In this document: positions 18,276 through 44,423 of the stretch, one piece after another
Layout: the number at the start of each line of letters is the position of its first letter
How positions within the stretch are numbered: the first letter of the stretch is position 1
From: Elusimicrobiota bacterium
GTDB taxonomy: Bacteria; Elusimicrobiota; UBA8919
Direction: 5' to 3'
Length of the DNA: 64,000 nucleotides
Assembly: GCA_028718185.1 (NCBI GenBank)
Contig: JAQUMH010000003.1
Location: 210,811-274,810 of the forward strand
Made by a program: the position numbers and the translations under genes
The notes under the pieces: generated by a model
Databases searched by the model: none
Told to the model about the DNA's origin: nothing
What the model saw: the letters and a program-made list of their open reading frames with translations, nothing else

Positions 18276-18294
18276 TTGCAGAAAAGGAGACGAT

Positions 18295-25884: not shown

Positions 25885-27024
25885 ATGAATATTGCAATAA
25901 ACGCTTCATATTTAGAAGGCAAAAGAACCGGTGTCGGCAGATATCTTTCCAATATTTTAAAGTATTGGTCAAAAAACTCTCCGGAAAATAATTATTACTT
26001 ATATTTTAAAAGAGAAATACCAAAAGATGAATATTTGAGTGCCCCTTGTTTCATTAAAAAAATAATACATGCACCGGAATTTTTAAATAGATGGATATTT
26101 TGGGAAAATATATTTTTGTCCAGGCATATTAAAAAAAACAAAGAACTGGATATCTTTTTTTCGCCCGCTTACACGTTGCCGTTTTTTATCGGCAACATAA
26201 AAAAAGTTGTAGCTGTATTCGATATTTTTTATACGGTGCACCCGGAATGGGTACCATTAAGCAATCGTTACACATTAGGACTTATTTCAAAAATATCTTC
26301 AAAACAAGCTGATGTTGTTTTAACGGCATCTAATTTTGATAAAAACGATATTGTAAAATATTATAAAGTGCCGGAAAGTAAAGTAAAAGTCATATATCTT
26401 GCCGCAGAAGACAAATTTAAAAATATTAACAATTTAGAAAATACTAAACATGTAATTTCAAAATACGGTATAAAGGACAAATATGTTCTTTGCGTTGGGC
26501 TGATAATTAACAGGAGAGTACAGGATATAATAATCAGGGCATTTAGCAGGTTGAATAAAGAATATAAAGATGCAAGTTTGGTTATCATTGGACAAAACAA
26601 AAGTTATCCGTATATTGACATAGAAAAAGAGATTGAAAATAGCAATGCGAAAGGAAATATAAAGTGGATTCCGTATTTGCCTGAAAACGAAATGACAAGT
26701 TTTTACAGTAATGCCTCTGCTTTTATTTATATTTCTCTGTATGAAGGCGAAAGTATTCCGCTGAAAGAAGCTATGGCAGCAGGTATCCCGGTAATAACAG
26801 CATCTATTTTAGATGAAGTTGTCGGAGATGCAGGGTATATTGTAAAAAATCCTAAAGATGAGGAAGAATTAAAAACAGCAATGAAAAGTGTTCTTTCAGA
26901 TAATAATCTACGAGATCAGATGATTCGGAAAGGAAAGAAACGAGCGGATATGTTTTCTTGGGAAAAATGTGCGCAGGAAACTATGGGGGTTTTAAAATAT
27001 GTTTGTATCCAGAGTAAAAAATAG
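25885..27024 (+). CDS. Glycosyltransferase family 4-like (GT-B)
   Basis: This 379-residue GT-B glycosyltransferase has an N-terminal GVGRYLSNILKYW acceptor-domain mark, ASNFDKNDIVKYY, a VLCVGL strand at the start of the donor domain and EGESIPLKEAMAAGIPVI, the EX7E-type motif that binds the nucleotide sugar. These are typical of retaining family 4 enzymes such as mannosyl- and rhamnosyltransferases. One base separates it from the preceding gene, and its 3' end overlaps the DUF2723 gene by 26 bases. It probably acts at the cytoplasmic membrane face on the lipid-linked repeat. Confidence 0.9.
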   Translation: MNIAINASYLEGKRTGVGRYLSNILKYWSKNSPENNYYLYFKREIPKDEYLSAPCFIKKIIHAPEFLNRWIFWENIFLSRHIKKNKELDIFFSPAYTLPFFIGNIKKVVAVFDIFYTVHPEWVPLSNRYTLGLISKISSKQADVVLTASNFDKNDIVKYYKVPESKVKVIYLAAEDKFKNINNLENTKHVISKYGIKDKYVLCVGLIINRRVQDIIIRAFSRLNKEYKDASLVIIGQNKSYPYIDIEKEIENSNAKGNIKWIPYLPENEMTSFYSNASAFIYISLYEGESIPLKEAMAAGIPVITASILDEVVGDAGYIVKNPKDEEELKTAMKSVLSDNNLRDQMIRKGKKRADMFSWEKCAQETMGVLKYVCIQSKK

Positions 27025-30000
27025 AATTATACATTTAAGAACATTACTTATTTTAATTTTATGCTTTCTTTTTAACTCCATATTTGCTTTGGAAAAACCT
27101 GAAACGAATAACGAGGTTAAATTAGATTTATCAGTAAATAGCGATAACTGGTTTTCAGTAGAGCCAATATCGGAAGATTGGAAAATACATGGTATATCAT
27201 TGATGTTGGAAAGTCGAGATTATAAATCAAAGAATTCGCTGCAAATAAAAGTTTTTAAAATCTTACCCGCACCCGATAAATATGATTTCTCTCTTTATGA
27301 GTTAAAATCAGCAACTGTCTATCCGCGTGATTTTAGCAAAAAAAAATATTATACGATTTTTTTTAAGGATGAAAGCAAGGACGAACGTCTATCCAATAAC
27401 TACGCACCATTTGACGCAAATCCTAAAGATAGATTCCTTATTAATATCATACCGGCTCAACCTGTTTCAATTTATTCTAACTTTAATTATGAAAAAACAA
27501 AACAATTGAATTTCCGAATAGTAAAGGATAATATTATTTTAGGACAAATAGGGGTTCCGGATGAAAATAAATGGAATATTCCTAATTATGGTATGCCGGA
27601 TGATTGTTCTCAAGGCGACCAGGGATTTTCTATTATAGATTTTGGGAAAAAGGCAAACGAAAATAAGATGATACAAGTTGTTGAAGTTCATTGTCAGTCC
27701 GGTAATAATAAAATAAAATTAAATATCTGGCGGGAAGAAAATGATGGGTGGTTGTTGATAAAAGAATCCGAGGTATTAACGGCTGGAAAGGGTTTCAACA
27801 CACTTAAACTTAAAAACCCTATTTTTATTACAAAAGGGGATTATATTGGATTTATTGCTTTAGCTGGTGAAATAAGCCGAACATTACCATATACAAGGAT
27901 CGGCAAGGGTTATATTAAAGGACCTGTTAAAGTATTAAGTAAAATACAAAAAGACATGATAACAAAAGATACTGCAGGTGATTACTGGTTGCATGTTTTC
28001 TCAAATGAAGAAATTGATTATGAATTAAGTGAAGGTCTTGCTTCGGACCATATTAGATATTCTAAAGAAGGAATCAGCATAATAGATTTGGAAAAAAGAG
28101 CAACAATAGACACTAAATTAGATATATTTGAGATATATTCTCTTGTACCTGACAATAAAGTAAGGTTAAAAATATGGAGTCGTGACAATGACAATTGGTT
28201 GCTTGTTGGTGAATCTGAATTATTTACGGCTAAAGTTGGTTTAAATTCCTTTAAACTCAGTAAAGAAATTGTTGTTAAAGAAGGTGATTATTTTGGTTTT
28301 TTTACATCGTCTGGCAGCATAAGTCGTAAAATGCCTTATATAAACAGTGGCAGATATTTTGTACAAGGTGACGTAGTTGCGGCCAAAATAGAAGATAGTA
28401 AAATGAACAAAGAAGGTGAAGGTGGTTATTGGTTTAACGTAGGATTGAGCAGTGTTAAAAACCAAGATATGATTGGTAGCATATATAACAACGCATATAT
28501 AAAATGGGTAACATCGCCGATGTGGGGAAATTTAGCAGGAATAATACTAAGTGACATAGAAAAGCCGTATAATTTCATCATGCCGTTTATATATCTTTTA
28601 CTTTTTGAAATAATAGCAATAGCTATATTAGGATTTATGTTTTATGGCAAGAGATTAATCAGAGAAAAAGAGAAGAGGGATATATTTTCTGTAATATTGA
28701 TTACAGGTTTTATAACGGCGATACTATATTTTGCCACAGTATGTACAGGTTTTCTCGGCGGCGATAATTATGAGATACAGATGGCACAGTATTTGTATAA
28801 GGATGTACATTTTCCCGGATATCCGATAATGATATTATTGGGTTACTGGTTTGGTAAGTTGATGCCTGTAGGAAATTATATGTACAAGGCGAATTTATTT
28901 GCCGTATTTTGTTCAAGTATAGGTATAAGTTTTTTTGCCGGAGCGTTATATAATTATACAAAACACAAAGCATCTTCAATATTGATTGCACTTATAATGG
29001 CGACTACTCAGACGATATGGAATTATAGTGTAGTGGCACAGGATTATTCGGTATCAATATTATTTCAATGTTTATTGTTATTTGCGATAGTAAATATACA
29101 AGAGGAACCTACATACAAGTCATATTTTAATCTGATAGTAATTGCCTTTTTAGCGCCGATAGCCCATATGACAAATGCAATAGGTTCACTTTTTATAATG
29201 GGTTTGACGACAATATGGTTTTGGAGAACCCACAGGTTTAATATTAAAAAAATACTATACATTGTTTTATCGTTAAGTACGATAATAATAATTCTTTATA
29301 CACCGTTGGCTTTAATTGAGAATCCTACTAATTATGCACAAATTGTTAAATATACTGACTGGAAAAACCAGTTTGTTGAAAAAAACACAGGGTACGAAAA
29401 TATAGTTATCAGTACAAATAGTTTAAAAATATTTTCTGGATATATTACAGGTAACGGTCCTGGTACAAATAGACGTTCTGGGATTATTGGTAAATTTAGT
29501 GAAAAAGGAATTTCCTATATCATTATAAAAGGTTTTTCTGGTTATTTGAGAATATTAGGATATGGATACGGATACATGCTTATCTTTATTAGTGTTTTAG
29601 GTTTACTTTTACTGTTAGTATATAAAAAAAGAAATATGATTATATGGTATTTATTATTTACATTTATTGGAAATATTATATTTAACTGCACTGAATTTTT
29701 TTATTATGAGTTTAAATATCTGGATTATGCATTAACAGCACATCAGCTTCCATCTATCATTATATTATCATTTAGTATTGTAGGTATAGTTATTTATTTT
29801 TTAAGAAATCAACTTATGAAAGAGCAAAAAGTCCGAAATAAACTACAATACTTATGGATTTTTATGAAGAAGAATAATATGAAAATATTTATGGTATTTC
29901 TTGTGGCACTGTTTTTCTGGAATACAATAAAGAATTATCGTTTATGTAATTTTCGTAGCCGCGACGATTGGGAAAAGATGATGTCTTTCTATCGCAATGA

Positions 30001-30832
30001 ACTAATACCTGGTACTACAATAAGAACACACATGTACGAAGAACATGTTTTAGGAGTATTTCACAGACTTGACTATACGCGTCGTGATACAGGTGATGAT
30101 AGATTTAGTGGTTGTTTAAGTTCACAAACAATATCTTTAAATTCGGATATAGTTTTACCGGCATTTTTGGATACAAAGAATCGTGCGAAAGAATCTTCAA
30201 TGTTTTACATAACAGATAAAGAGATAGATAAATATTTTAATTTAGTTCCGATACCTACGAAATATCATTTAAGGTTTATAATGGGAGACATAGCTAATTT
30301 ACAATTATATCATGGTTTCAAAGATAGGCAACTGTACTATGCGCTTCCGAAGGCAACTGCGGTCGGAGTAAATCCGGTGGGTCAGGAGATAACAACAGCG
30401 AATTTTAACAAGAATAAAAATATATTTATAAACAACTGGGAAGCGACGCCACTTGGAATACGGTCTAATTACATAGGGTGGATATCAAATATTCTTATAT
30501 ATAGACCTAAAAGGGAAAAAGTAAAGCAGGTTGTAATGAAGTTGATAATGACATTAAATCCTGAGAACAAGCCTGGTTGTAACATCAATAAAGTGGATTT
30601 AGCATTTTATCTGAATAATGTCGTGATAAAAGAAAGACGGGTAATGTCTGGCAAGAAAGAGGAGATAACAATTGAAATACCTGTGAGTGAATTAAGCAGG
30701 CGATACAACTTTCTTTCAATAGTACCGTTTTACAATGGTGTAAATTGCTGGTATCCGACACCTTTATATCCACTGCCAAAAGGTGAATATCCGTATCTGA
30801 TTAAGAGTTTAAGAGTTGATGAAATCGAATAA
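26999..30832 (+). CDS. DUF2723/GT-C-like membrane protein with duplicated beta-rich domain (paralogue A)
   Basis: This 1277-residue protein starts with a signal-anchor helix (about residues 10-30) and a large extracytoplasmic region to about 525. About ten membrane helices and a C-terminal soluble domain of about 330 residues follow. The FLGGDNYEIQMAQYL and HFPGYPIMILLGYWFG segments, with an acidic residue in the first loop, match DUF2723, a protein-O-mannosyltransferase-like family expected to use polyprenyl-phosphate sugars. Two tandem copies of a 125-130 residue domain occupy residues 207-333 and 356-481. The paralogue at 39903 lacks both. GGGGG precedes the start. The sugar and acceptor are unknown. 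Confidence 0.82.
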   Translation: MFVSRVKNRIIHLRTLLILILCFLFNSIFALEKPETNNEVKLDLSVNSDNWFSVEPISEDWKIHGISLMLESRDYKSKNSLQIKVFKILPAPDKYDFSLYELKSATVYPRDFSKKKYYTIFFKDESKDERLSNNYAPFDANPKDRFLINIIPAQPVSIYSNFNYEKTKQLNFRIVKDNIILGQIGVPDENKWNIPNYGMPDDCSQGDQGFSIIDFGKKANENKMIQVVEVHCQSGNNKIKLNIWREENDGWLLIKESEVLTAGKGFNTLKLKNPIFITKGDYIGFIALAGEISRTLPYTRIGKGYIKGPVKVLSKIQKDMITKDTAGDYWLHVFSNEEIDYELSEGLASDHIRYSKEGISIIDLEKRATIDTKLDIFEIYSLVPDNKVRLKIWSRDNDNWLLVGESELFTAKVGLNSFKLSKEIVVKEGDYFGFFTSSGSISRKMPYINSGRYFVQGDVVAAKIEDSKMNKEGEGGYWFNVGLSSVKNQDMIGSIYNNAYIKWVTSPMWGNLAGIILSDIEKPYNFIMPFIYLLLFEIIAIAILGFMFYGKRLIREKEKRDIFSVILITGFITAILYFATVCTGFLGGDNYEIQMAQYLYKDVHFPGYPIMILLGYWFGKLMPVGNYMYKANLFAVFCSSIGISFFAGALYNYTKHKASSILIALIMATTQTIWNYSVVAQDYSVSILFQCLLLFAIVNIQEEPTYKSYFNLIVIAFLAPIAHMTNAIGSLFIMGLTTIWFWRTHRFNIKKILYIVLSLSTIIIILYTPLALIENPTNYAQIVKYTDWKNQFVEKNTGYENIVISTNSLKIFSGYITGNGPGTNRRSGIIGKFSEKGISYIIIKGFSGYLRILGYGYGYMLIFISVLGLLLLLVYKKRNMIIWYLLFTFIGNIIFNCTEFFYYEFKYLDYALTAHQLPSIIILSFSIVGIVIYFLRNQLMKEQKVRNKLQYLWIFMKKNNMKIFMVFLVALFFWNTIKNYRLCNFRSRDDWEKMMSFYRNELIPGTTIRTHMYEEHVLGVFHRLDYTRRDTGDDRFSGCLSSQTISLNSDIVLPAFLDTKNRAKESSMFYITDKEIDKYFNLVPIPTKYHLRFIMGDIANLQLYHGFKDRQLYYALPKATAVGVNPVGQEITTANFNKNKNIFINNWEATPLGIRSNYIGWISNILIYRPKREKVKQVVMKLIMTLNPENKPGCNINKVDLAFYLNNVVIKERRVMSGKKEEITIEIPVSELSRRYNFLSIVPFYNGVNCWYPTPLYPLPKGEYPYLIKSLRVDEIE
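27617..28441 (+). repeat. Tandem duplication of a beta-rich domain inside paralogue A
   Basis: Unit 1 (27617-27997) and unit 2 (28064-28441) encode domains that align throughout: FSIIDFGKKA with ISIIDLEKRA, IKLNIWREENDGWLLI with VRLKIWSRDNDNWLLV, KGDYIGFIALAGEISR with EGDYFGFFTSSGSISR, and GDYWLHV with GGYWFNV. The protein similarity is clear but the DNA has diverged, so the duplication is old. The many aromatic and glycine residues suggest a jelly-roll type fold; sugar binding is possible but not shown. Confidence 0.85.
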
Positions 30833-30853
30833 ACCAAATTCGGAGGCACTTCA

Positions 30854-31840
30854 ATGGAAAATGATTCAAAAATAAGTATGACCATAATTCTGCCTATGTA
30901 TAATGAGGGAGAACATATTTCTGAAAATATGAAATCAGTATTGAATATATTAAAAAAAACTTCTTATAATTGGGAACTTTTAGTTATAGACGATGGAAGT
31001 ACCGATGATTCACGTCGAAAAGCTGAAGAAACCTTATCGGGTATAAAAAATGCCCGTGTGATTTCATACCAGACAAATCGTGGCCGGGGTTTTGCTCTGC
31101 GAATCGGTTTTGCAAATGCAAAAGGTGATTATATTATCACAACAGAATCTGATTTAAATTGGGGAACTGATATAATTTTCAAAATAAAAGAACGTTTAGA
31201 CGTCGGCGATTTAGACATAGTTATTGCTTCCCCGTATTTAAAAGACGGTAGATTGGAGAATGTCCCGCTTAAAAGAGCTTTTTTAAGCCGTTTAGGAAAT
31301 AAAATACTGTCATTATCTTTTTCAGGCAATTTAAGTATGCTGACCGGAATGACTAGAGGATATAGACGGGCAGTTATAGAATCTTTGGATTTAGATTCCG
31401 AGGGTAAAGAAATACATCTTGAAATTATTTCCAAGGCAAATGCATTAGGTTATAAAATAGGAGAAATTCCGGCTATATTAAGGTGGAAAAAATCAAAAAA
31501 AGGGGAGAAAAAAAGGAAATCCAGTTTTAACGCAAAAGAGATAATATTCAGTCATTTGCTATTTAGTTTTGGTGAATCGCCTATAATTCTTTTAGGAACT
31601 GTTAGTGCAATTTTTATAACTGCCGGTGTTATAATTGGATTATATCTTATTAATTTGTCACTTTTTCAAGGAATACCTGTGCGTGGCAGACCAATCATGC
31701 TTCTAATGGTTTTATTAATTCTTATCGGTATTCAAATACTGGTTTTTTGTTTTGTGGCTAACCAGAATAGAGATATGTATAAATATATGGTTAAATTAGA
31801 AAGTAAGATAAATAAGATTGTAAGACAAAGCAAATGTTAA
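30854..31840 (+). CDS. Glycosyltransferase family 2, DPM1-like with two C-terminal helices
   Basis: This 328-residue GT2 has ILPMYNEGEHISENM at the start, VIDDGSTDDSR for nucleotide binding and TESDLNWGTD in the place of the DXD metal site. After residue 240 come two membrane helices. The layout matches polyprenyl-phosphate mannosyl/glucosyl synthases (DPM1, GtrB). GGAGG lies 7 bases before the start. It follows the DUF2723 protein and precedes a UPF0104-type membrane protein. It could therefore make the lipid-linked donor used by the DUF2723 enzyme. Confidence 0.88.
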   Translation: MENDSKISMTIILPMYNEGEHISENMKSVLNILKKTSYNWELLVIDDGSTDDSRRKAEETLSGIKNARVISYQTNRGRGFALRIGFANAKGDYIITTESDLNWGTDIIFKIKERLDVGDLDIVIASPYLKDGRLENVPLKRAFLSRLGNKILSLSFSGNLSMLTGMTRGYRRAVIESLDLDSEGKEIHLEIISKANALGYKIGEIPAILRWKKSKKGEKKRKSSFNAKEIIFSHLLFSFGESPIILLGTVSAIFITAGVIIGLYLINLSLFQGIPVRGRPIMLLMVLLILIGIQILVFCFVANQNRDMYKYMVKLESKINKIVRQSKC

Positions 31841-31862
31841 CAGGTGAAAAAATTGTTTAATT

Positions 31863-32858
31863 ATGAAATATGGTATAGTAGTATCAAAAATAGTCAGATA
31901 TTTTCCCAGATTTATCGGAATATTGTTAATTGTATATTTGATACGGTTTGTCAATATAACGAAAGTATTTTCACTTATTATCAATTTTAAAGTAAAATGG
32001 CTAATAATAGCAATAATCATAAATTTTATTGCGATTCTTATAAGGGCATACAGGTGGCAGAAAATATTAGAAATACAACAAATAAATATTGGATTAATAA
32101 GGTTATTCAATATATATCTTGTTTCATTTGCCTTCGGGTTGATTTCGCCTGGAAGAATCGGTGATTTCAGCAAAGCGTTATATTTAAAACAAGAAGGTTA
32201 TTCTCTTTCAAAGTCTATATTAAGCAGTTTCATTGATAGGGTTTATGATATGATTTTTCTTATTATCTTTGGAATTATTTGCTTATTTATGGCTATATCG
32301 TTATTTCAAAATCAGTTAATAATTTTACTGGTCTTTTTATTGGTTATAACAATATTTATCTATATGATTTGTAAAAATTGGATGTTCTTGAAAAATGTAA
32401 TAAGACGTTTTTTAAATGAGAAATTAGGTGAAATATTAAAAAATATTATCATAAAAATAAGATATGAATCATCATTATTTGGTAAAAAAAGCATTATTAT
32501 ATGTTTTTTTTTAACCGTCATAGCGTGGTTTTCATACTATATACAGTCATATTTTCTTTCAAAAGTTATCAATATTAATATTCCTTTTATTTATCTGGTA
32601 GTGGGAATATCAATTTCTACCGTTTTGAATTTATTACCTATAAGTATGCTGGGCATAGGAACGCGGGATGCGGTTTTTATTACTGTTTTTTCAACAGTGG
32701 CTATTAGTAAAGAACAATCCCTGGCTTTTTCTGCTTTATTTCTTTTAATGTTTATTTTAAATATACTTACAGGTGTTATAATATGGTGGTTTAAGCCTAT
32801 TAATATACCAAGTCTTTTGAAAAATCTAAATTATAGTGTTGCAGAGCTGACGAAATAA
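31863..32858 (+). CDS. UPF0104/LPG-synthase-transmembrane-like protein, possible lipid-sugar flippase
   Basis: This 331-residue protein has about eight hydrophobic helices and the family mark GLISPGRIGDFSKALYL near residue 93, with a following FIDRVYDM. Members of this family (the membrane half of MprF and AglD-type proteins) are associated with lipid transport across membranes. The neighbouring DPM1-like GT2 and DUF2723 protein fit a role in turning over a polyprenyl-phosphate sugar, but this is inference. No soluble catalytic domain is attached. The start lies 22 bases after the GT2 stop. Confidence 0.82.
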   Translation: MKYGIVVSKIVRYFPRFIGILLIVYLIRFVNITKVFSLIINFKVKWLIIAIIINFIAILIRAYRWQKILEIQQINIGLIRLFNIYLVSFAFGLISPGRIGDFSKALYLKQEGYSLSKSILSSFIDRVYDMIFLIIFGIICLFMAISLFQNQLIILLVFLLVITIFIYMICKNWMFLKNVIRRFLNEKLGEILKNIIIKIRYESSLFGKKSIIICFFLTVIAWFSYYIQSYFLSKVININIPFIYLVVGISISTVLNLLPISMLGIGTRDAVFITVFSTVAISKEQSLAFSALFLLMFILNILTGVIIWWFKPINIPSLLKNLNYSVAELTK

Positions 32859-32873
32859 TTCTAAAGACAGATT

Positions 32874-34286
32874 ATGAAAATACTGTTAATTAACCCATAT
32901 TTAAGTCAGGAAATATCGTATGGTAAAAATTTTAAGCGTTTGGGCGCTGTTATGCCTCCTTTGGGGCTTTGTTATATTGCAGGTGTGCTGGAAAAAGAAG
33001 GATATCTAGTTAATATTATAGATGCCAACCTGAAATGTATGTCTAATAAAGATATACTTGATATAATTGGCAAAAATATTCCTGATATAATCGGGTTTTA
33101 TGCGACAACTTTGAGTATAGATATTGTAGTGGAAACAGTCAAAGACATTAAAGAAAAATATCCTGAAATATATATTACAATTGGTGGTCCCCATATCTCC
33201 GGTTATGGAAAAGACACTCTTAAATGTAAATACTTTGATTTTGGAATAATCGGTGAGGGCGAATACAGTTTTTTAGATCTTGTAAAATGTTTGGAATCCG
33301 GAAGTAATAATTTTGATAATATTAAAGGACTTGTTTATAAAAAGAACGGGGAAATTATTCGGAATGAACCTGTCCAGCCGATAAAGAATCTTGATGAGTT
33401 ACCGTTCCCTGCTCGACATCTTTTGACTGATATTAAGAATTATCATGAAAAAATCATGCTTTATAAGAAACAGCCGGTTGCCCATATTTTTACTTCACGC
33501 GGTTGTCCGTATAAATGTATATTTTGTCAGACACCGTTAGGTAAAACTGTAAGATTTCATAGTGCCGAATATGTCGCCGATGAAATAACTAAATTAGTAA
33601 ATGACTTTGGTGTTAAGGAAATAAAAATAAATGATGATACTTTTAACTTAAATGAAGGCAGGATTATCAGAATATTTGATATTCTTAAAAAAAGAGGAAT
33701 TGTTATACCGTGGACCTGCAATTTAAGAGTAAATACTATAAAGGATAAGAATTTTTTAAAAGATATCAAAGAACGTGGTTGTTGGATGATAAGACCTGGT
33801 CTTGAGAGTGGCAATCAAAAAGTATTGGATGTTCTTAAAAAAGGAATAACTCTTGAACAAGGAAAGCAAGTGTGTATTTGGGCAAAGGACGTTGGCTTAA
33901 AAATTCAGGCTTTTTTTGTTATTGGTAATCCATTGGATACTGAAGAAACAATTTGTGAAACAATTAATTATGCCAAATCCCTTCCCATTGATTATCCTGC
34001 ATTTTCCCTGATGACTCCGTTTCCCGGCACGGAAATGTGGGAGAAAGCTAATGAATACGGGACTTTTTCATATAATAAATTTAGTGATTTAGCCTATTCA
34101 CATAAAGTTACTTTCATACCTTATGGTTTGAACAAAAATAAATTACTTTACCTTTATAGAAAAGCGTATAAAGATTCATATTTAAATATAAGAATGATTT
34201 TACGGCATTTAAAAAATATTGATAGTTTTGTAGAATTTAAAAGAATGTGTTCTGCTGCTTTTAGTTTTTTTCAATTAGTTGAATAA
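32874..34286 (+). CDS. B12-binding-type radical SAM protein
   Basis: This 470-residue protein has an N-terminal cobalamin-binding-like domain (PPLGLCYIAGVLEKEGY, IYITIGGPHISG, FGIIGEGEYSF) and a core with TSRGCPYKCIFCQT (Cys211, Cys215, Cys218). RPGLESGNQKVLDVLKKG is the SAM strand. The third of four such enzymes in the window, it is closest in layout to the 19151 product. It is followed after 7 bases by a heparinase-like gene. It may methylate or epimerise a sugar carbon; the substrate is not known. Confidence 0.87.
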   Translation: MKILLINPYLSQEISYGKNFKRLGAVMPPLGLCYIAGVLEKEGYLVNIIDANLKCMSNKDILDIIGKNIPDIIGFYATTLSIDIVVETVKDIKEKYPEIYITIGGPHISGYGKDTLKCKYFDFGIIGEGEYSFLDLVKCLESGSNNFDNIKGLVYKKNGEIIRNEPVQPIKNLDELPFPARHLLTDIKNYHEKIMLYKKQPVAHIFTSRGCPYKCIFCQTPLGKTVRFHSAEYVADEITKLVNDFGVKEIKINDDTFNLNEGRIIRIFDILKKRGIVIPWTCNLRVNTIKDKNFLKDIKERGCWMIRPGLESGNQKVLDVLKKGITLEQGKQVCIWAKDVGLKIQAFFVIGNPLDTEETICETINYAKSLPIDYPAFSLMTPFPGTEMWEKANEYGTFSYNKFSDLAYSHKVTFIPYGLNKNKLLYLYRKAYKDSYLNIRMILRHLKNIDSFVEFKRMCSAAFSFFQLVE

Positions 34287-34293
34287 ATAATTT

Positions 34294-35979
34294 ATGAAAA
34301 GAAAGGAAATATATCTTAAATTAGTATTAGAACAAATTCCCAGGCTTTTAGGACAGTTGGACAGGGTATTCGAGTCACCGACTTACGGGTGTTTTGACAG
34401 GCAGTATTGGAATTACCTGACCAAAGATTTTTCGTCTATAATTCCACAATATGCAACACTTAGCCTGGCTTTAATATACTACATAAGTGATGAAAATAAT
34501 ATATGGTTTAAAAATACGGATATAAAGCGATGGTGTATAGCAAGTATGTTGTATTGGGCAAAAATTCAGCATGATGACGGTTCTTTTGACGAAGCTTATC
34601 CATATGAACATAGCCAGCCGGGTACTGCGTTTTCTTTATATTTCATAGCTGAAGCATATGATATTTTTAAAGATGAGATGGATGATATTACAAGAAATCT
34701 GATTTTCGATAAAATGAAGAAAGCGTTAGAGTTTACGTGGAATTATAAAAAAGGTGAATTAAATATTAGTAATCACAGCGCCGGAAATATAGCGGCATTT
34801 TATAAGATGTATACTCTTGACAATGATGAAAAAAATAAAAATAGAGCTGCTGCCATGTTAACAGATTTTGTTTCCAACCAGTCAAAAGAAGGCTGGTTCC
34901 CGGAATACGGTAGTGCAGATATAGGATATTCAACAGTAACTCTTTATTTCTTAGCGAATTATTACAGGCTTAGCAATGATAAGGCTGTGTTACCGGCAAT
35001 AGAACGTTTAATAGAATTTATCAGCTATTTTGTTCACCCGGATGGTTCTATCGGCGGGGAATACGGGAGCAGGGAAACTTCTTTTGTTTTACCAAGTGCT
35101 CTTGAAATTATGGCAAACGGAAATAAGTTAGCAAAAGCGATTATTTGTATGCATCATAATGCAATAATATCAATGCGGACACCTGTGCCTTCTTCTTGTG
35201 ATGACGCAAATCTATTGTGTTTTTTATTTATTTCTTATTTACAGGCGTATTTATTTACAGATGATGATTCTTCTGACAACGTAAGTCTTCCGTTTCAGAG
35301 TGAAGTAGATTTTAAAAAACATTTTGAAGAATCCGGTCTTTTGATTGTTAAAACAAAAACATATTATTCGGTTGTTTCTTCAAAAAAAGGTGGTGTTTTA
35401 AAAGCTTACAATTTAAAAAATAAATCAATTGACGTTATAGATTTAGGTTGGGTTGGCAATATGGGTAAATATATTGTTTCAAGTAATAAATATAATTCGG
35501 ATTTGCAGGTAAAAATGGATGAAAATAAGTTAGTAATTAGTGCTAATTTTTGTTATATAAAAATGAATAAAGTATTGACTCCGCTTAAAATGATTGTTTC
35601 ACGATTTGTGTTTTATGTGATTTCACCATTAGCTTTTTTACGTACATTTATTAAAGAAATGTTAAGGAAATATTTTATTACTGATTTAAAAAAAAGCGTT
35701 TTTGTGCTACAGCGCACAATTTCTTTTCTTGATAATAAGATAACCATAAATGATATTTTGAAAGGATTTGGAAAATCTAATATAAAAGAATTACATGTAT
35801 CTGAATCTTATTCTCCCATTTATGGTTATTCCAAAGGTTTATATCGATGTAATACGCGTGCTGAGCGTAAAAAAATTACGATTCAGATTAATGATGAATC
35901 AAAACCGATGGAAATTACCAGAGTATTGGATTTGGAAAATGGAGAAGTTAAAATAGAAAAAGAGGAAATCCTGTGGTGA
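34294..35979 (+). CDS. Heparinase II/III-like alpha-barrel protein
   Basis: The 561-residue protein has an N-terminal half rich in paired helices ending in short loops (QHDDGSFDEAYPYE, NHSAGNIAAFYKMYTL, GWFPEYGSADIGYS, HPDGSIGGEYGSR), a pattern of alpha/alpha toroid lyases. The C-terminal half, after residue 345, is beta-rich (YYSVVSSKKGGVL). The usual secretion signal is absent, so it may act in the cytoplasm. Related genes occur in sugar clusters without a proven function. A lyase or sugar-chain editing role is a guess; the catalytic residues could not be identified. It lies 7 bases after a radical SAM gene. Confidence 0.65.
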   Translation: MKRKEIYLKLVLEQIPRLLGQLDRVFESPTYGCFDRQYWNYLTKDFSSIIPQYATLSLALIYYISDENNIWFKNTDIKRWCIASMLYWAKIQHDDGSFDEAYPYEHSQPGTAFSLYFIAEAYDIFKDEMDDITRNLIFDKMKKALEFTWNYKKGELNISNHSAGNIAAFYKMYTLDNDEKNKNRAAAMLTDFVSNQSKEGWFPEYGSADIGYSTVTLYFLANYYRLSNDKAVLPAIERLIEFISYFVHPDGSIGGEYGSRETSFVLPSALEIMANGNKLAKAIICMHHNAIISMRTPVPSSCDDANLLCFLFISYLQAYLFTDDDSSDNVSLPFQSEVDFKKHFEESGLLIVKTKTYYSVVSSKKGGVLKAYNLKNKSIDVIDLGWVGNMGKYIVSSNKYNSDLQVKMDENKLVISANFCYIKMNKVLTPLKMIVSRFVFYVISPLAFLRTFIKEMLRKYFITDLKKSVFVLQRTISFLDNKITINDILKGFGKSNIKELHVSESYSPIYGYSKGLYRCNTRAERKKITIQINDESKPMEITRVLDLENGEVKIEKEEILW

Positions 35980-36821
35980 ACAAAATTACAGATTTATTGC
36001 TGTTATTAAGTTGTCCGGATGACGGACATGATATTGTGCTAATATCTGAGAACCAATTAAGTTGTTCTTATTGCAACAGAAAATACAATTTCGAAAACGG
36101 TATTCTAAAGATATTGCCTTCAAAAAAAACAGCATTACCTCCTGTATATCAAAATGAGGATTACATTAAATGGCAGTCAATATTTCCGGGAGTTTTTGAA
36201 TCTCGGGGTATATTTCATAAGATAATTGATGAATCCACGCACAGGTGGATTGCCAAAATATTTAATAAGCAGAAAATAAGTGATAAAGAATGGGTTTTAG
36301 ATTTAGGTTGCGGGATAGGAGACCATTTTAAGTATTTTAAAAGATTAAATAACGTAATTGGATTTGATATAAATGAAATTGCTTTGCTTAAATGCAGAGA
36401 AAAATATAAAGAAATTATTCTTTTGCAGGGAGATTTATATTCGCTTCCTTTTAAGAATGAAGTTCTGGTACATGTTATGATGTTGCATGTATTAGAGCAC
36501 ATGTATTATCTTGATAAGGCTTTAATCGAAACAGAAAGAATTTTAAATAAAGAAGGATTTTTATATATGGGTTTACCGTGCGAAGGCGGGTGGCTAAGAG
36601 ATACCTTAAGAGCAATAACTACTTCAAAGATTAATTCTCGCAAATATAATATGGATTATGATAAAGTTTCTAAAATAGAACATTGTAACGACACATATAA
36701 ACTGATAGATGTTTTAGGACAAAAGTTCACTATGTTAAAGAAAAGATTTTTCCCGTTTAATTTATTAAATTGTGTTGGTGTAAATTTAACATTATCAATG
36801 AAATTGCAAAGAAAATGTTGA
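35973..36821 (+). CDS. SAM-dependent methyltransferase with N-terminal Trm112-like zinc motif
   Basis: This 282-residue methyltransferase begins with a short zinc-ribbon-like part (CPDDGHD, then CSYCNRKYNFENGIL) similar to the Trm112 domain. The core has WVLDLGCGIGDHF as motif I, GFDINEIALLKC as the acidic loop and HVMMLHVLEHM as motif IV. The start is GTG, 7 bases inside the preceding gene; AGAGGAA lies 5-11 bases upstream. A second GTG follows directly and could be used instead. The substrate is not known. Confidence 0.86.
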   Translation: MVNKITDLLLLLSCPDDGHDIVLISENQLSCSYCNRKYNFENGILKILPSKKTALPPVYQNEDYIKWQSIFPGVFESRGIFHKIIDESTHRWIAKIFNKQKISDKEWVLDLGCGIGDHFKYFKRLNNVIGFDINEIALLKCREKYKEIILLQGDLYSLPFKNEVLVHVMMLHVLEHMYYLDKALIETERILNKEGFLYMGLPCEGGWLRDTLRAITTSKINSRKYNMDYDKVSKIEHCNDTYKLIDVLGQKFTMLKKRFFPFNLLNCVGVNLTLSMKLQRKC

Positions 36822-36902
36822 TGACATAAATTTCTTCAATCTTATACTGATGTTATCAAAATGTAATAACTTAACAGATATTAAGAAAGGAAGTATAAAA
36901 TA

Positions 36903-38720
36903 ATGTATATTTTAGGTCTTAATTGTGCGCATGACTCAACGGCAGGACTCATTAAAGACGGCCAGATAATAGCCGCTATAGCGGAAGAAAGGTTAACGCG
37001 GAAAAAACAGCATTTGGGTTTTCCTTATCTCGCTATTAGGGAATGTCTGAAAATAGGTAATATTAAACCCAAAGATGTTGATTTTGTAACAATTGCATTT
37101 AAGGACTATTTAAGAGGGCACCCCTTTTTTACCAATTTGATTTTAACCGGTAATAGTAATATTGATGTGGCTAATGAACTTTCTTTATTTTCTCTACTAA
37201 AAGAATTTATCAGGCAAAGTGTAAAACATGGATTATTATTTCATACAAAGAAAGTCTCCAATGAGAATGAAAATTATTCAAGGAAGGCATATGAAAACAC
37301 TTTGAAAAAAATGGGTTTTCAGTGCCCGTTAATAGATGTGGAACATCATTTGGCTCACGCCGCTAGTGCTTATTATACTTCAGGATTTAATAACTGCTTA
37401 TTAGTGACAATAGATGGTTCAGGGGATGGGCTAAGTGGTACAGTAAATTCAGGAAAGGACGGGCTGATTTCCCGGATTTGCGAGACACATCTTAAATTTT
37501 CTCCCGGAGTGTTTTATTCAGCAGTAACGAAGTATTTAGGATTCAAAAGACACCGGCATGAAGGAAAAATCACTGGTCTTGCAGCATACGGGAATCCTGA
37601 AATATGCTATCCTGTTATGGCTAATGCCCTTACTCTTTCTAAAGATAAAAAGTCATTTTCTACAGGGTTAAATTATAATTTTACCTTGTTTCAGAATCTT
37701 AAATGGTTTTTTAGACTTATTTGGGGTAGATATTTTAGAAGCCAAATGACCAATTTATTGTTAGATTATTTTTCAAAAAAATTAAAAAAATGCTCAAGAG
37801 AGAATATAGCTGCAGCTGCCCAGAAGAGATTGGAAGATTGTGTTGTTGAACATGTTGAAAAAATGGTTAAAGATACCGGATTAAGTAAGGTAGCATTGGC
37901 AGGTGGTGTGTTTTCTAATGTTAAATTAAATCAAAAGATATCGGAATTGCCGGTAGTTGAAGATATATTCATTCACCCTGATATGGGTGACGGGGGAACA
38001 GCCTTAGGAGGAGCGTTTGTTGTCTGGGCAGAGGAGTTACAAAAGAAAGGTTGGAAATTTATGCCTTTCAAGATACATGATGTTTATTTTGGTCCAGAGT
38101 ATTCTAATGAAGAAATAAAGACGATTTTGGAAGAATTTAATTTAAAGTATAATTATTATGAAAATATAGAAGAAGTTATTGCCCGCTATATTGCAGATAA
38201 ATATATTGTAGGTCGTTTTAGCGGAAGAATGGAGTATGGACCGCGTGCGCTTGGGAATAGGAGTATCCTGGTAGAGTCTACAGATGTTACGGTAAACGAT
38301 TGGCTGAATAAAAGATTGTGCAGGACGGAATTTATGCCTTTTGCTCCGGTTATACTTTCTGACGAAACTAACGATTTCTTTAACAAGTTTTATAAATCAG
38401 AACATGCAGCAGATTTTATGACTATTACGTTTGATGCCACAGAAAAGTGTGTTAAACTTGCACCGGCAATTTGTCATGTAGATAAAACAGCCCGTCCGCA
38501 GGTAATTTCTCCGGATATAAATGCAAGTTATTTTAAAATAATAGAAGAATATAAAAAAATAACAGGATTACCACTATTGATAAATACAAGTTTTAATGCA
38601 CATGAAGAGCCGATAATTTGCACGCCTGCAGATGCGATAAAATCTTTTTTAAGAAAAAATGTGGATATCTTGGCAATCGGTAATTATATTGTAGAAAGTA
38701 AATATAAAAGATTTATATGA
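36903..38720 (+). CDS. Carbamoyltransferase (NodU/TobZ/CmcH family)
   Basis: This 605-residue enzyme transfers a carbamoyl group from carbamoyl phosphate to a sugar hydroxyl through a carbamoyladenylate. The N-terminal Kae1-like domain has LGLNCAHDSTAGLI (His10) and VEHHLAHAASAYY. LAGGVFSNVKLNQ and GRMEYGPRALGNRSIL lie further on, and the C-terminal YrdC-like region starts near residue 390. AAGGAAG precedes the ATG. A carbamoylated sugar would be consistent with the NodU, TobZ and O-antigen examples. Length and motifs are complete. It overlaps the next gene as ATGA. Confidence 0.92.
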   Translation: MYILGLNCAHDSTAGLIKDGQIIAAIAEERLTRKKQHLGFPYLAIRECLKIGNIKPKDVDFVTIAFKDYLRGHPFFTNLILTGNSNIDVANELSLFSLLKEFIRQSVKHGLLFHTKKVSNENENYSRKAYENTLKKMGFQCPLIDVEHHLAHAASAYYTSGFNNCLLVTIDGSGDGLSGTVNSGKDGLISRICETHLKFSPGVFYSAVTKYLGFKRHRHEGKITGLAAYGNPEICYPVMANALTLSKDKKSFSTGLNYNFTLFQNLKWFFRLIWGRYFRSQMTNLLLDYFSKKLKKCSRENIAAAAQKRLEDCVVEHVEKMVKDTGLSKVALAGGVFSNVKLNQKISELPVVEDIFIHPDMGDGGTALGGAFVVWAEELQKKGWKFMPFKIHDVYFGPEYSNEEIKTILEEFNLKYNYYENIEEVIARYIADKYIVGRFSGRMEYGPRALGNRSILVESTDVTVNDWLNKRLCRTEFMPFAPVILSDETNDFFNKFYKSEHAADFMTITFDATEKCVKLAPAICHVDKTARPQVISPDINASYFKIIEEYKKITGLPLLINTSFNAHEEPIICTPADAIKSFLRKNVDILAIGNYIVESKYKRFI

Positions 38721-39844
38721 ATAAAAAAATTAAAATTATAAGTGTTGTTGGTGCAAGACCGAATTTTATGAAAATTGCTCCGTTATCTGCTGAATTTGCA
38801 AAAAGAGCGGATAAAATAGAGCATATTTTAGTTCATACCGGTCAGCATTATGACAGGTCAATGGATAAAATATTTTTCGAAGAGTTAAATTTGCCAAAAC
38901 CTCATATTAATCTCGGGATTGGTTCGGCATCACACGCGGTTCAAACAGCAAAAATAATGATTGGTTTTGAAAAAGTATGTCTTAAATATCTTCCAGACTG
39001 GATAGTTGTAGTTGGAGATGTAAATTCTACGATGGCTTGTTCATTAGTAGCAAGTAAAATGGGAATAAAAGTAGCGCACGTTGAGGCGGGTCTCCGCAGT
39101 TTTGACATGAGTATGCCCGAGGAAATAAACCGGGTAGTAACTGATTCAATTTCTGATTTACTGTTTACACCTTCTCCTGATGCAAATGCAAATCTGCTTC
39201 GCGAGGGAATTGATAAGAAAAAAATTAAAATGGTTGGAAACATAATGATTGATACTCTAATTGCAAATTTGGACAAGGCACTGGCGCAGAAAACACACTT
39301 GAAGATGGATCTAAAGGAAAAATATTTTGTTTATGTCACACTTCATCGTCCGAATAATGTTGATAGTAAGGAAAATCTGGGAAAAATTGTAAAAGAGCTG
39401 GTTTATCTTTCAGGTAAAATACCTGTTGTATTTGCTGTCCACCCGCGTACAAAGAAAAATATGTTAAAGTTTAGTTTAATGGATAAATTGAAAAATAGTC
39501 GCAATATTATACTTGCGGAACCGCTGGGATATCACGATTCTATTTGCCTTACTAAAAATGCAAGATTTATTTTGACGGATTCCGGAGGTATTCAGGAAGA
39601 AACAACTTTTTTAAAGGTTCCTTGCCTTACAATAAGACCTTCCACGGAACGGCCTGTTACTATTACTGAAGGAACTAATAAGTTAACTAATATTGATGAA
39701 TTACAGAAAAATATGAGTGATTTATTAAGTAAAATGACTCCTAAAAAGAGTAAAATTCCAAAATTTTGGGATGGCAAGACAGCAAAAAGGATTGTCGATA
39801 TATTATTTATATATTATTCTGCTTTATCATTGAAAAGGCATTAG
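38717..39844 (+). CDS. wecB: UDP-GlcNAc 2-epimerase, non-hydrolysing type
   Basis: This 375-residue enzyme interconverts UDP-GlcNAc and UDP-ManNAc. VVGARPNFMKIAPL, HTGQHYD, VVGDVNST, HVEAGLRSFD and RPSTERPVTITEGTN are the fold's characteristic blocks, and LTDSGGIQEE binds the UDP part. The length is that of the non-hydrolysing family, and no kinase domain is fused. It could supply ManNAc to a nonulosonate pathway or to ManNAc-containing chains. The start overlaps the preceding stop as ATGA. Confidence 0.9.
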   Translation: MNKKIKIISVVGARPNFMKIAPLSAEFAKRADKIEHILVHTGQHYDRSMDKIFFEELNLPKPHINLGIGSASHAVQTAKIMIGFEKVCLKYLPDWIVVVGDVNSTMACSLVASKMGIKVAHVEAGLRSFDMSMPEEINRVVTDSISDLLFTPSPDANANLLREGIDKKKIKMVGNIMIDTLIANLDKALAQKTHLKMDLKEKYFVYVTLHRPNNVDSKENLGKIVKELVYLSGKIPVVFAVHPRTKKNMLKFSLMDKLKNSRNIILAEPLGYHDSICLTKNARFILTDSGGIQEETTFLKVPCLTIRPSTERPVTITEGTNKLTNIDELQKNMSDLLSKMTPKKSKIPKFWDGKTAKRIVDILFIYYSALSLKRH

Positions 39845-39858
39845 TAAAAAGATATAAT
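39830..39858 (+). promoter_or_regulatory. Sigma70-type promoter before DUF2723 paralogue B
   Basis: TTGAAA (39830-39835) and TATAAT (39853-39858) are separated by 17 bases. The -35 box lies in the last codons of the epimerase gene. Transcription would start near 39865, about 38 bases before the ATG at 39903, where AAAGGAG is found. It could make the DUF2723-B block a separate transcript within the larger run. Confidence 0.5.
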
Positions 39859-39902
39859 TAACAATTCAGGGAAATAATATTCAAAAGGAGATTTAAGCAT
39901 TC

Positions 39903-42764
39903 ATGATTAAAAAATATTGTAAGTTGTTAAGTGTTTTGGTAGTTACAGTTGTTTTATTTCTATCTGTAAATAACTATATTACAGCAAAACCAGTCAAAAG
40001 TGATGAAGTTAAGTTAGATTTATTGGTCGGTAAAGATAATTGGTTTCTTATGGAACCTTTAACTGAAAGTTGGAAAATACATGGGATTTCCTTACTTCTT
40101 GAGAGTGATAATTATAAATCAAAAAACCCAATGGAGATAAAAGTATATCAAATATTGCAGTCAACAATTAGTTTAAATAGTCTGATAATAAATGAGGTGA
40201 TGGAAGTTAAAGTTTTTCCTAAGGATCTAAATAGGAAGAGATATTATACAGTATTTTTTGGAGATCATGAATATAAAGAGAAAAAATATAAATCATTTCT
40301 CGCAGAACCAACCGATAGATTCGTTGTAAACATAAAAGTAAAACAGGCGGTGTCGATTTATTTGGCATCAGATTCAAAAGATAAATCTAATAAGGTTATA
40401 GAACAAAATAAATTACTAATAAAGAATTTTGCAAGTGTTAAAAAAGATACAGAATTAAATAATAACGCATATATAAAGTGGGTAACAGCGCCAATTTGGG
40501 GGCATATAGCTGGAACGATACTAAGTGCGATGGAGAAACCGTACAATTTTATAACACCGTTCATATATTTAATACTTTATGTAATAATAGCTATAATTAT
40601 ATTAGGTTTTGTCTTTTATGGTAAGAATTTATTTTTAGATATAGAGAAGTTTAACATATTTAAAGTAATATTGACGACCAATGTAATATTAGTGATGCTA
40701 TATTTTGCAACAGTATGTACAGGTTTTATCGGTGGTGATAATTACGAGATACAGCTAGCTCAATACTTGTATCAGGATGTACATTTTCCCGGATATCCGA
40801 TAATGATATTTTTGGGTTATTGGTTCGGTAAGTTAATGCCTGTGGGCAATTTTATGTATAAGGCGAATTTATTCGGAGTGTTTTGTTCGAGTATCGGGAT
40901 AAGTTTTTTTGCAGGGGCATTATACAATTATACAAAACATAAAACATCAGCAATGTTAATAGCACTCGTAATGGCGACAACCCAGACGGTGTGGAATTAC
41001 AGTGTGGTTGCGCAAGATTATTCGGTATCAATATTATTTCAATGTTTAATATTATTTGCAATAATAAATTTACAAAATGAATCTGACTATAAGTCATATT
41101 TCAATTTGATAGTTTTTGCTTTTTTAGCGCCGATAGCTCATATGACAAATGCAATGAGTTCGCTTTTTATTATGATTTTGGCGACAATATGGTATTGGAA
41201 AACACACAGATTTAATTTAAAGAAAATAGTAGACATTGTTTTATCTTTAAGCTTAGTATTTATTGTTTTATATACTCCATTGATTTTAAAGGAAAGTCCT
41301 AATTATTATGCTCGGGTTGTATTTAAAACTAAAGAAGAAATTACAATTAACAGGAACAATTTAAAAATATTTTTTGGATATATTACAGGTAATGCTCCTC
41401 AAATGAAAGCGAGTAATGGGTTTGTAAACCTTGTTAAAAATGCTGGAATTATGCCCACTATCAGATCTCATTTTCATACATATCGAAAACTATTAAATTA
41501 CGGATATGGTTACTTGTATGCTATTATAGGTGGGTTGGGTCTGTTTATATTGCTGATATATAAGAAAAGTAGCATAATTACTTGGTATCTGTTGATTGCA
41601 TTATTTAGTAATATATTATTTAGTTGTACTGATATATCATATCTTAAACTTCCAAAAGGTGACAATATACTAACAGGTCATCAACTCCCATCAATAATTA
41701 TATTGTCTTTTAGTATCGTAGGCATAGTTATTTCTATTTTAAGAAAACGGATTATAGAAGAGCAAAAAGTCCGAAATAAACTACAATACTTATGGATTTT
41801 TGTGAAGAAGAATAATATGAAAATATTTTTGGTATTTCTTGTGACATCGATTTCCTGGAATATAATAATAAATTATCGTTTATGCGATTATCGCAGCCGC
41901 GATGATTGGGAAAAAATGATGTCTTTCTATCGCAATGAGCTAATACCGGGTACTACCGTAAGGACACATATGTACGAAGAACATGTTTTGGGGATATTTC
42001 ACAGGCTTGAATATACCCGTCGTGATACAGGTGATGATAGATTTAGCGGTTGTCTAAGTTCGCAAACAATATCTTTAAATTCAGAGTATGTTTTACCGGC
42101 ATTTTTAGATTCAAAGAATCGAGAAAAGGAATCTTCAATGTTTTACATAACTGATAAAGAGATTGATAAATATTTTAATTTAGTTCCTGTGTTTACAAAA
42201 TATCATTTGAGGTTTATATTGGGAGATATAGCTAATTTACAATTATATCAAGGTTTTAAAGATAGGCAATTGTACTATGCGCTTCCAAAGAGAACAATGG
42301 CTGGTGTAAATCCGTCATGGCAAGAGATAACAGCAGTGAATTACAATAAATATAAAAGTATATTTATAAACAACTGGGAAGCGACACCGCTTGGAATACG
42401 GCCTAATGATATAGGGTGGGTATCAAATATTCTAATATATAAACCTAAAAGGAAAAAAATAAAGCAAGTTGTAATGCGGTTTGTGGTGACATTAAATCCG
42501 GAGAACAAACCTGGTAACATCAATAAGGTAGATATGGCATTTTATCTAAATAATGTTGTGATAAAGGAAAGACGTGTAATGTCCGGCAGGAAAGAGGAGA
42601 TAAGAATAGAAGTACCAGTGAGTGAATTAAGTAGGCAATACAATTTTCTTTCAGTAGTCCCTTTTTACAATGGTGTAAATTGTTGGTATCCGACACCTTT
42701 ATATCCGTTACCAAAAGGTGAATATCCATATCTAATTGAGAGTTTTAGTATAATTGAACAATAG
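39903..42764 (+). CDS. DUF2723/GT-C-like membrane protein (paralogue B)
   Basis: This 953-residue protein shares the whole membrane and C-terminal region with paralogue A. GGDNYEIQLAQYLYQDVHFP and the FGKLMPVGNFMYKANLFG block are nearly the same, and the soluble C-terminus matches for long stretches. The N-terminus has a signal-anchor helix and a shorter extracytoplasmic region of about 165 residues; the two duplicated domains of paralogue A are absent. It probably transfers a sugar from a polyprenyl-phosphate donor outside the membrane. AAAGGAG precedes the ATG. It is followed by a methyltransferase and a GT2, giving a second glycosylation set. Confidence 0.82.
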   Translation: MIKKYCKLLSVLVVTVVLFLSVNNYITAKPVKSDEVKLDLLVGKDNWFLMEPLTESWKIHGISLLLESDNYKSKNPMEIKVYQILQSTISLNSLIINEVMEVKVFPKDLNRKRYYTVFFGDHEYKEKKYKSFLAEPTDRFVVNIKVKQAVSIYLASDSKDKSNKVIEQNKLLIKNFASVKKDTELNNNAYIKWVTAPIWGHIAGTILSAMEKPYNFITPFIYLILYVIIAIIILGFVFYGKNLFLDIEKFNIFKVILTTNVILVMLYFATVCTGFIGGDNYEIQLAQYLYQDVHFPGYPIMIFLGYWFGKLMPVGNFMYKANLFGVFCSSIGISFFAGALYNYTKHKTSAMLIALVMATTQTVWNYSVVAQDYSVSILFQCLILFAIINLQNESDYKSYFNLIVFAFLAPIAHMTNAMSSLFIMILATIWYWKTHRFNLKKIVDIVLSLSLVFIVLYTPLILKESPNYYARVVFKTKEEITINRNNLKIFFGYITGNAPQMKASNGFVNLVKNAGIMPTIRSHFHTYRKLLNYGYGYLYAIIGGLGLFILLIYKKSSIITWYLLIALFSNILFSCTDISYLKLPKGDNILTGHQLPSIIILSFSIVGIVISILRKRIIEEQKVRNKLQYLWIFVKKNNMKIFLVFLVTSISWNIIINYRLCDYRSRDDWEKMMSFYRNELIPGTTVRTHMYEEHVLGIFHRLEYTRRDTGDDRFSGCLSSQTISLNSEYVLPAFLDSKNREKESSMFYITDKEIDKYFNLVPVFTKYHLRFILGDIANLQLYQGFKDRQLYYALPKRTMAGVNPSWQEITAVNYNKYKSIFINNWEATPLGIRPNDIGWVSNILIYKPKRKKIKQVVMRFVVTLNPENKPGNINKVDMAFYLNNVVIKERRVMSGRKEEIRIEVPVSELSRQYNFLSVVPFYNGVNCWYPTPLYPLPKGEYPYLIESFSIIEQ

Positions 42765-43691: not shown

Positions 43692-44423
43692 ATGGATATA
43701 AATAAAGATAGTAAAAAAATCAGTTTTTGTATAGTTGTTCCTATGTATAATGAGGAATCAAATGCAGAAAAATGTGTAACTACTATACATGATTTTATCA
43801 GCAAGTTAAGTTATAAAACTGCGTTAATAGCTGTGAATGATGGTAGTAAAGACAAGACCGGTGATATTTTAAAAAATATATCAACTAAACTGAATAAGTT
43901 CATTATAGAGACACATGAAAAGAACAAAGGTTATGGGTCTGCTAATCTTACCGGTGCCAAACGTGCATTTAAGGAAGGCTATGATTATGCACTATTCATG
44001 GATGCTGACCTTACACAAAATGTTAGTTATATTTACCCATTTATTGAAGAAATGAATAAAGGTACTGATTTTATAAAAGCTACCAGATATGCAAAGGGCG
44101 GCGGTGTTAAGGATGTGCCTTTTAATCGATGGATAGTATCTTTAATAGGTAATAAAATTATTAAAATATTTTTTAGATTACCATTGACTGACTATACAAA
44201 TGGTTTCAGAGCTGTAAAAACCTGTCTTTTATCTCAAATAGAATGTGAAGACAGAGGTTTTTCTTATTTAATTGAAGAGGTTAAAAAAATTTCTAAGATT
44301 TCAAAGAGTTATGCAGAAGTGCCTTATATTTTAACAGTCAGAGAGAGTAAATATTCTAAATCAAAATTTCAATATTCACCAAAAGTATATTATAAATATT
44401 TAAGATATTTATTTAAAAAGTAA
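43692..44423 (+). CDS. Glycosyltransferase family 2, DPM1-like without membrane helices
   Basis: This 243-residue GT2 has VVPMYNEESNAEKC, AVNDGSKDKTGDI and FMDADLTQN (DAD as the metal site), and LTDYTNGFRAVK. It is the soluble form of the polyprenyl-phosphate sugar synthases, shorter than the 30854 product because the two C-terminal helices are missing. It follows the DUF2723-B and methyltransferase genes, so it may supply the donor for that protein. The start has a weak ribosome site. Confidence 0.87.
   Translation: MDINKDSKKISFCIVVPMYNEESNAEKCVTTIHDFISKLSYKTALIAVNDGSKDKTGDILKNISTKLNKFIIETHEKNKGYGSANLTGAKRAFKEGYDYALFMDADLTQNVSYIYPFIEEMNKGTDFIKATRYAKGGGVKDVPFNRWIVSLIGNKIIKIFFRLPLTDYTNGFRAVKTCLLSQIECEDRGFSYLIEEVKKISKISKSYAEVPYILTVRESKYSKSKFQYSPKVYYKYLRYLFKK

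Follow-up and report, generated by a model that had tools for sequence, protein, structure and literature searches.

The window analysed here, a stretch of 64,000 nucleotides from an Elusimicrobiota bacterium (contig JAQUMH010000003.1), contains two paralogous genes that agree closely along some parts of their length and poorly along others, which raises the question of whether constraint on the proteins accounts for this pattern or whether gene conversion between the copies has contributed to it. An initial annotation, in which the family was named DUF2723, had read the pattern as a sign either that gene conversion took place recently or that the C-terminal half is under strong constraint. 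Gene A (26999-30832) encodes 1277 amino acids and gene B (39903-42764) 953, both on the plus strand; the open reading frames and Pfam matches place the two genes where that annotation had put them and bear out their paralogy, with an identity of about 69%. Both match PF11028, the present-day TMEM260-like family of GT-C glycosyltransferases, A over residues 592-745 (E = 2e-9) and B over residues 282-435 (E = 4.3e-10), at 37.9 and 40.1 bits respectively and so above the curated profile cut-off of 24.2 bits. A search of PDB sequences matched the TMEM260 chain 9rql_A (E = 3.6e-6) over about 130 residues. The frame of A overlaps the last 26 bases of the glycosyltransferase gene ahead of it (25885-27024).

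The genome has eight PF11028 matches in total. A and B score low among them (44 and 42.9 bits, against 114.9-141.7 in five of the six others), and because of these low scores we regard the pair as a divergent branch of PF11028. Three more PF11028 genes lie close together at 58053-62775 of contig C2 in the same genome, beyond the window. The nearest match to B in the genomes of relatives (60 searched, its own included) is about 31% identical, and no third homologue of A and B was found in two genome-contig scans, in viral contigs or in plasmids. Searches of the phylum returned the own genome only, both with B as query (340 genomes, E <= 1e-12) and with the C-terminal domain (334 genomes, E <= 0.01); no homologue of that domain was found outside this genome.

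We found that protein divergence falls into blocks. Unsupervised BIC segmentation of 919 aligned A/B codons gave breaks at A 155/156, 760/761 and 911/912; the four resulting blocks, from 5' to 3', carry 83/148, 54/268, 78/139 and 61/364 amino-acid differences, corresponding to identities of 44% in the N-terminal domain, 80% in the core, 44% in the mid segment (A 761-911) and 83% in the C-terminal third. The two blocks of low identity agree with the N-terminal and sixth-to-ninth helix regions that the initial annotation had described as divergent. As dN is 0.08 in the core and C-terminal domain versus about 0.5 in the variable parts, constraint on the core and C-terminal domain is real and shapes the protein pattern. 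As a control for constraint we compared 55 pairs among 11 PF11028 relatives, six of them at 62-70% identity; in those six the region aligned to A 761-911 shows no dip (0.53-0.86, versus 0.42-0.46 in A/B), whereas in remoter pairs (0.36-0.38) positions 836-911 do dip, to 0.16-0.34, and these values are merely indicative, as the alignment of the relatives to A and B is weak outside the core.

The blocks correspond to a domain layout that the two proteins share: an N-terminal hydrophobic helix, a beta-rich N-terminal domain, many membrane helices (by hydropathy) and a C-terminal domain of about 300 residues. In A, the signal or anchor helix and the beta-rich domain (26999-27475; B counterpart 39903-40349) are variable in amino acids and saturated at silent sites; the first membrane helices and catalytic core (28487-29278; B, 40467-41252) are conserved, with dS of about 1.0; the mid segment (29279-29731; B, 41253-41669) is 44% identical, with dS of about 2.2; and the C-terminal domain (29924-30832) is 84% identical to its counterpart in B (41862-42764). 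All of these lie on the plus strand. The beta-rich assignment is taken from a low-confidence model of B, in which, at a pLDDT of 31.7, nothing more than hints of secondary structure can be read. The mid segment is probably a periplasmic loop with two membrane helices, and helix counting, together with the basic linker that joins the last two helices, would place the N-terminal domain, the mid-segment loop and the C-terminal domain outside the cell membrane.

The core motif reads G-D-N-Y-E ... H-F-P-G-Y-P in A and B. The pattern D..E ... H.PGYP is common to both and to 11 of 11 aligned homologues, nine of which have D-S-G-E and two D-A-G-E; these homologues had been selected by the motif itself, two of 13 loci (L003 and L007) having failed the pattern and been excluded. 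A and B keep the D and E and replace S/A-G by N-Y; we take this D and E, in the first extracytoplasmic loop, to be the catalytic residues.

A also carries an insert of about 337 residues (27476-28486, plus strand), which the initial annotation did not mention. It follows the N-terminal domain and precedes the core's first membrane helix, has no counterpart in B, and consists mostly of two tandem beta-rich modules of about 140 residues (27596-28015 and 28034-28457) that are 37% identical to each other. One module was folded (mean pLDDT 58.5), and confidence in its predicted strands is low to moderate; compared with the PDB it gave no match at E <= 0.001, CBM6 and other jelly-roll domains being among the weak matches, to which we give no weight. 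A PDB sequence search with the C-terminal domain and the insert modules as queries returned nothing at E <= 1, and a search of 21 genomes found the modules in A only. Positions 160-496 of A, which align to B by chance only, were kept in the A/B comparison underlying the insert and removed before the silent-site counts, dS fit and segmentation.

Silent divergence is likewise uneven. The annotation had named even synonymous divergence along the genes as the outcome that would speak against its proposal; in a maximum-likelihood codon model with omega free per segment, equal dS across segments was rejected (2dL = 75.1, df 5). Estimates are 0.99 and 1.04 for the two parts of the core, 2.21 for the mid segment, 0.43 for codons 906-982 and 0.66 for the C-terminal domain (profile interval about 0.56-0.71), while dS in the N-terminal domain is saturated and poorly estimated; segment edges vary slightly between analyses (906-975 versus 906-982). 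Since the contrast in dS rests on poorly conserved segments, we counted silent differences at identical residues only. Degenerate codons for identical residues differ in 57/125 cases in the two variable regions versus 132/489 elsewhere (P = 9e-5, Fisher's exact test), and in 14/37 versus 91/354 (P = 0.12) in the strict subset with identical residues on both flanks. The best single break falls at A codon 930, with 131/341 silent differences to the left versus 58/273 to the right (P = 0.0002). Silent divergence is thus lower in a contiguous segment, as gene conversion predicts, with P = 0.036 in the protein-conserved segments only and P = 0.078 when the tract described below is also removed, which shifts the best break to 1028. 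Thus, the unevenness at silent sites is real overall and moderate within the conserved protein.

BIC applied to the silent differences gave three segments (131/341, 0/35 and 58/238), the second of which is a tract at A codons 930-982 (29786-29944; B counterpart 41724-41882, both on the plus strand) in which none of the 35 degenerate identical codons differs. The probability of such silent identity is 0.0005 relative to the whole gene, 0.003 relative to the conserved segments and 0.006 relative to the C-terminal third. The tract contains the run of more than 40 identical bases that had been noticed near 29821 and 41759 and that we place, one base off, at 29820-29863 and 41758-41801 (44 nt). When 628 conserved codon columns were shuffled the longest run was 37.1 +/- 7.4 nt, so that 44 nt (P = 0.175) is unremarkable at the identity of A and B, and we reject the run as stand-alone evidence of conversion. 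The tract also has 15 replacement codons, which would not be expected after a clean, recent conversion. As they are clustered towards both ends, the stretch between the clusters is possibly a short converted one; positive selection or chance may also lie behind the tract.

Constraint alone cannot lower silent divergence, which falls in the 3' third, and old, partial homogenisation of this third is the likelier additional cause. Of the original proposal, constraint therefore stands, and there is support for a partial homogenisation of the 3' third; the homogenisation is not recent, because dS there is still about 0.66. For the same reason we reject a recent conversion spanning the entire C-terminal half, the short tract being perhaps an exception. 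The explanation that we find best as a whole, and to which we would give about an even chance, is that the two genes encode TMEM260-type GT-C glycosyltransferases, paralogues of old standing within a surface-polysaccharide cluster, in which strong purifying selection holds the catalytic core and C-terminal domain; the N-terminal domain (with the two extra modules of A) and the mid segment have diverged, plausibly because donors or acceptor sites differ between the copies. Partial gene conversion, well after the copies separated, would have homogenised mainly the 3' third and left both its lower silent divergence and one silent-identical tract near its 5' edge. The block pattern, the uneven silent divergence, the family match and the gene neighbours are direct observations, whereas conversion and its direction, the donors, the acceptor and the topology are inferences; the unequal apparent ages of the parts hint at old exchange of DNA between the copies and not at one simple duplication.

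A single old duplication without recombination is less probable, though a serious competitor. Constraint would then act segment by segment, and the silent unevenness would be estimation error, from misalignment and doublet changes in poorly conserved segments, together with chance elsewhere. The loss of significance with strictly flanked codons and after removal of the tract accords with this and tells against conversion, and silent differences show no autocorrelation (lag-1 P = 0.23). It sits poorly with the overall change point and with the silent run, improbable even at the C-terminal third's own rate, and the expected silent fraction is nearly independent of omega at fixed dS. Replacement of one copy's N-terminal domain or insert and mid segment by a divergent foreign homologue, the rest keeping its paralogue distance, seems improbable to us. 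Such import fits the sharp protein breaks at A 155, 760 and 911, the saturated or high dS in exactly those segments and the presence of the insert in A only, but it leaves the lower dS of the C-terminal third relative to the core unexplained, searches of 334-340 genomes from the phylum and two genome-contig scans gave no donor, and third-position G+C per segment is similar in A and B. An overlapping function that preserves the nucleotide sequence of the tract, such as an RNA structure or a regulatory site, is very improbable. In its favour, the 0 silent and 15 replacement differences of the tract contrast with 58 and 45 in the C-terminal domain (post hoc Fisher P = 2e-5). Against it, A's copy gives no RNA fold signal (z = +1.0), on which ground we reject an RNA structure, many tract bases differ between A and B, and a genome search for the 42-nt core that allowed up to 3 mismatches gave no further occurrence. 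The two genomic matches to this core, those in A and B, likewise led us to reject a repeated mobile sequence.

The window holds a surface-polysaccharide cluster with Wzx-, Wzy-, NeuB-, glycosyltransferase-, epimerase- and methyltransferase-type genes. Directly after A follow a GT2 polyprenyl-phosphate-sugar synthase-like gene (30854-31840) and a gene for a TIGR00374 flippase-like membrane protein (31863-32858; above the cut-off, and matching PF03706 too); B is followed by a methyltransferase gene and then by another GT2 gene of the same kind (43692-44423). Both GT2 genes and the flippase-like gene lie on the plus strand, and no flippase-like gene was seen beside the second GT2. Polyprenyl-phosphate-sugar synthases are among the best NCBIfam models for both GT2s, all below cut-off (AglJ and ArnC for the first, PpgS for the second). 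The two GT2s are just 25% identical, and we therefore reject a recent block duplication of GT-C and GT2 genes. A 561-aa protein encoded mid-cluster (34294-35979) has no Pfam match at E <= 0.001. Elsewhere in the cluster, a CMP-sugar synthetase-like domain fused to a HAD-like domain (15290-16447) and a NeuB-type gene (18250-19146) suggest a nonulosonic acid in the glycan as the presumed substrate.

The GT2 neighbours of both genes suggest a Gtr-like periplasmic glycosylation. A and B would each probably receive one sugar from a polyprenyl-phosphate-sugar, the product of the GT2 enzyme whose gene lies downstream, and transfer that sugar, on the outer side of the membrane, to the glycan that the cluster produces. 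From gene context the acceptor would be a glycan rather than a protein, and because the arrangement resembles the three-component systems described in PMC11127046, we consider it more likely that a glycan is decorated outside the membrane than that proteins are O-mannosylated, the known activity of TMEM260 (PMC11292533).

On a more speculative reading, which we consider doubtful, A and B would be two versions of one modular lipid-linked glycosyltransferase, with a shared catalytic core and an acceptor-binding C-terminal domain that repeated conversion keeps from drifting apart, exchangeable outward-facing specificity segments (the N-terminal modules and mid segment), and a donor-lipid synthase for each version. 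The conserved chassis with two variable segments, each copy lying by a different donor-synthase-like gene, marks segments that may set specificity, and the pair also marks domains that deserve tests. Little work seems to exist on TMEM260-like proteins of bacteria: no paper in the literature searched uses the term DUF2723, although other names may be in use, and none of the papers found on gene conversion and mosaicism in glycosyltransferase paralogues concerned bacterial GT-C enzymes. The evolutionary case is modest, as partial homogenisation of paralogues is already well known. H. pylori alpA is a bacterial paralogue under partial gene conversion (PMC5971833), and long-lasting concerted evolution is described in prokaryotes (PMC6053082). 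There, genes are shaped by conversion or by concerted evolution inside one genome, as they may be here; unlike those cases, ours is one pair in one genome, in which the silent distance is still large.

According to PMC11292533, TMEM260 and PF11028 proteins are GT-C protein O-mannosyltransferases of CAZy family GT117. A and B match the family core and 9rql_A and have the D..E and H.PGYP motifs; they differ in their low profile scores, in D-N-Y-E for D-S-G-E or D-A-G-E, and in N-terminal and approximately 300-aa C-terminal domains that belong to no recognised family. The three-component systems provide the other comparison: PMC11127046 describes GT-C enzymes that draw on a lipid-linked sugar at the outer side of the membrane and may bear carbohydrate-binding domains. 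A and B belong to another GT-C family than the Gtr-type and GT136-type enzymes treated there, their activity is predicted from genes, and a TIGR00374 protein, beside A's GT2 only, stands in place of GtrA or MATE. They resemble these systems in that, within a polysaccharide cluster, the GT-C gene has a polyprenyl-phosphate-sugar synthase-like gene close by and, in the case of A, a flippase-like gene, and extra extracytoplasmic domains on the GT-C enzyme are known there as well.
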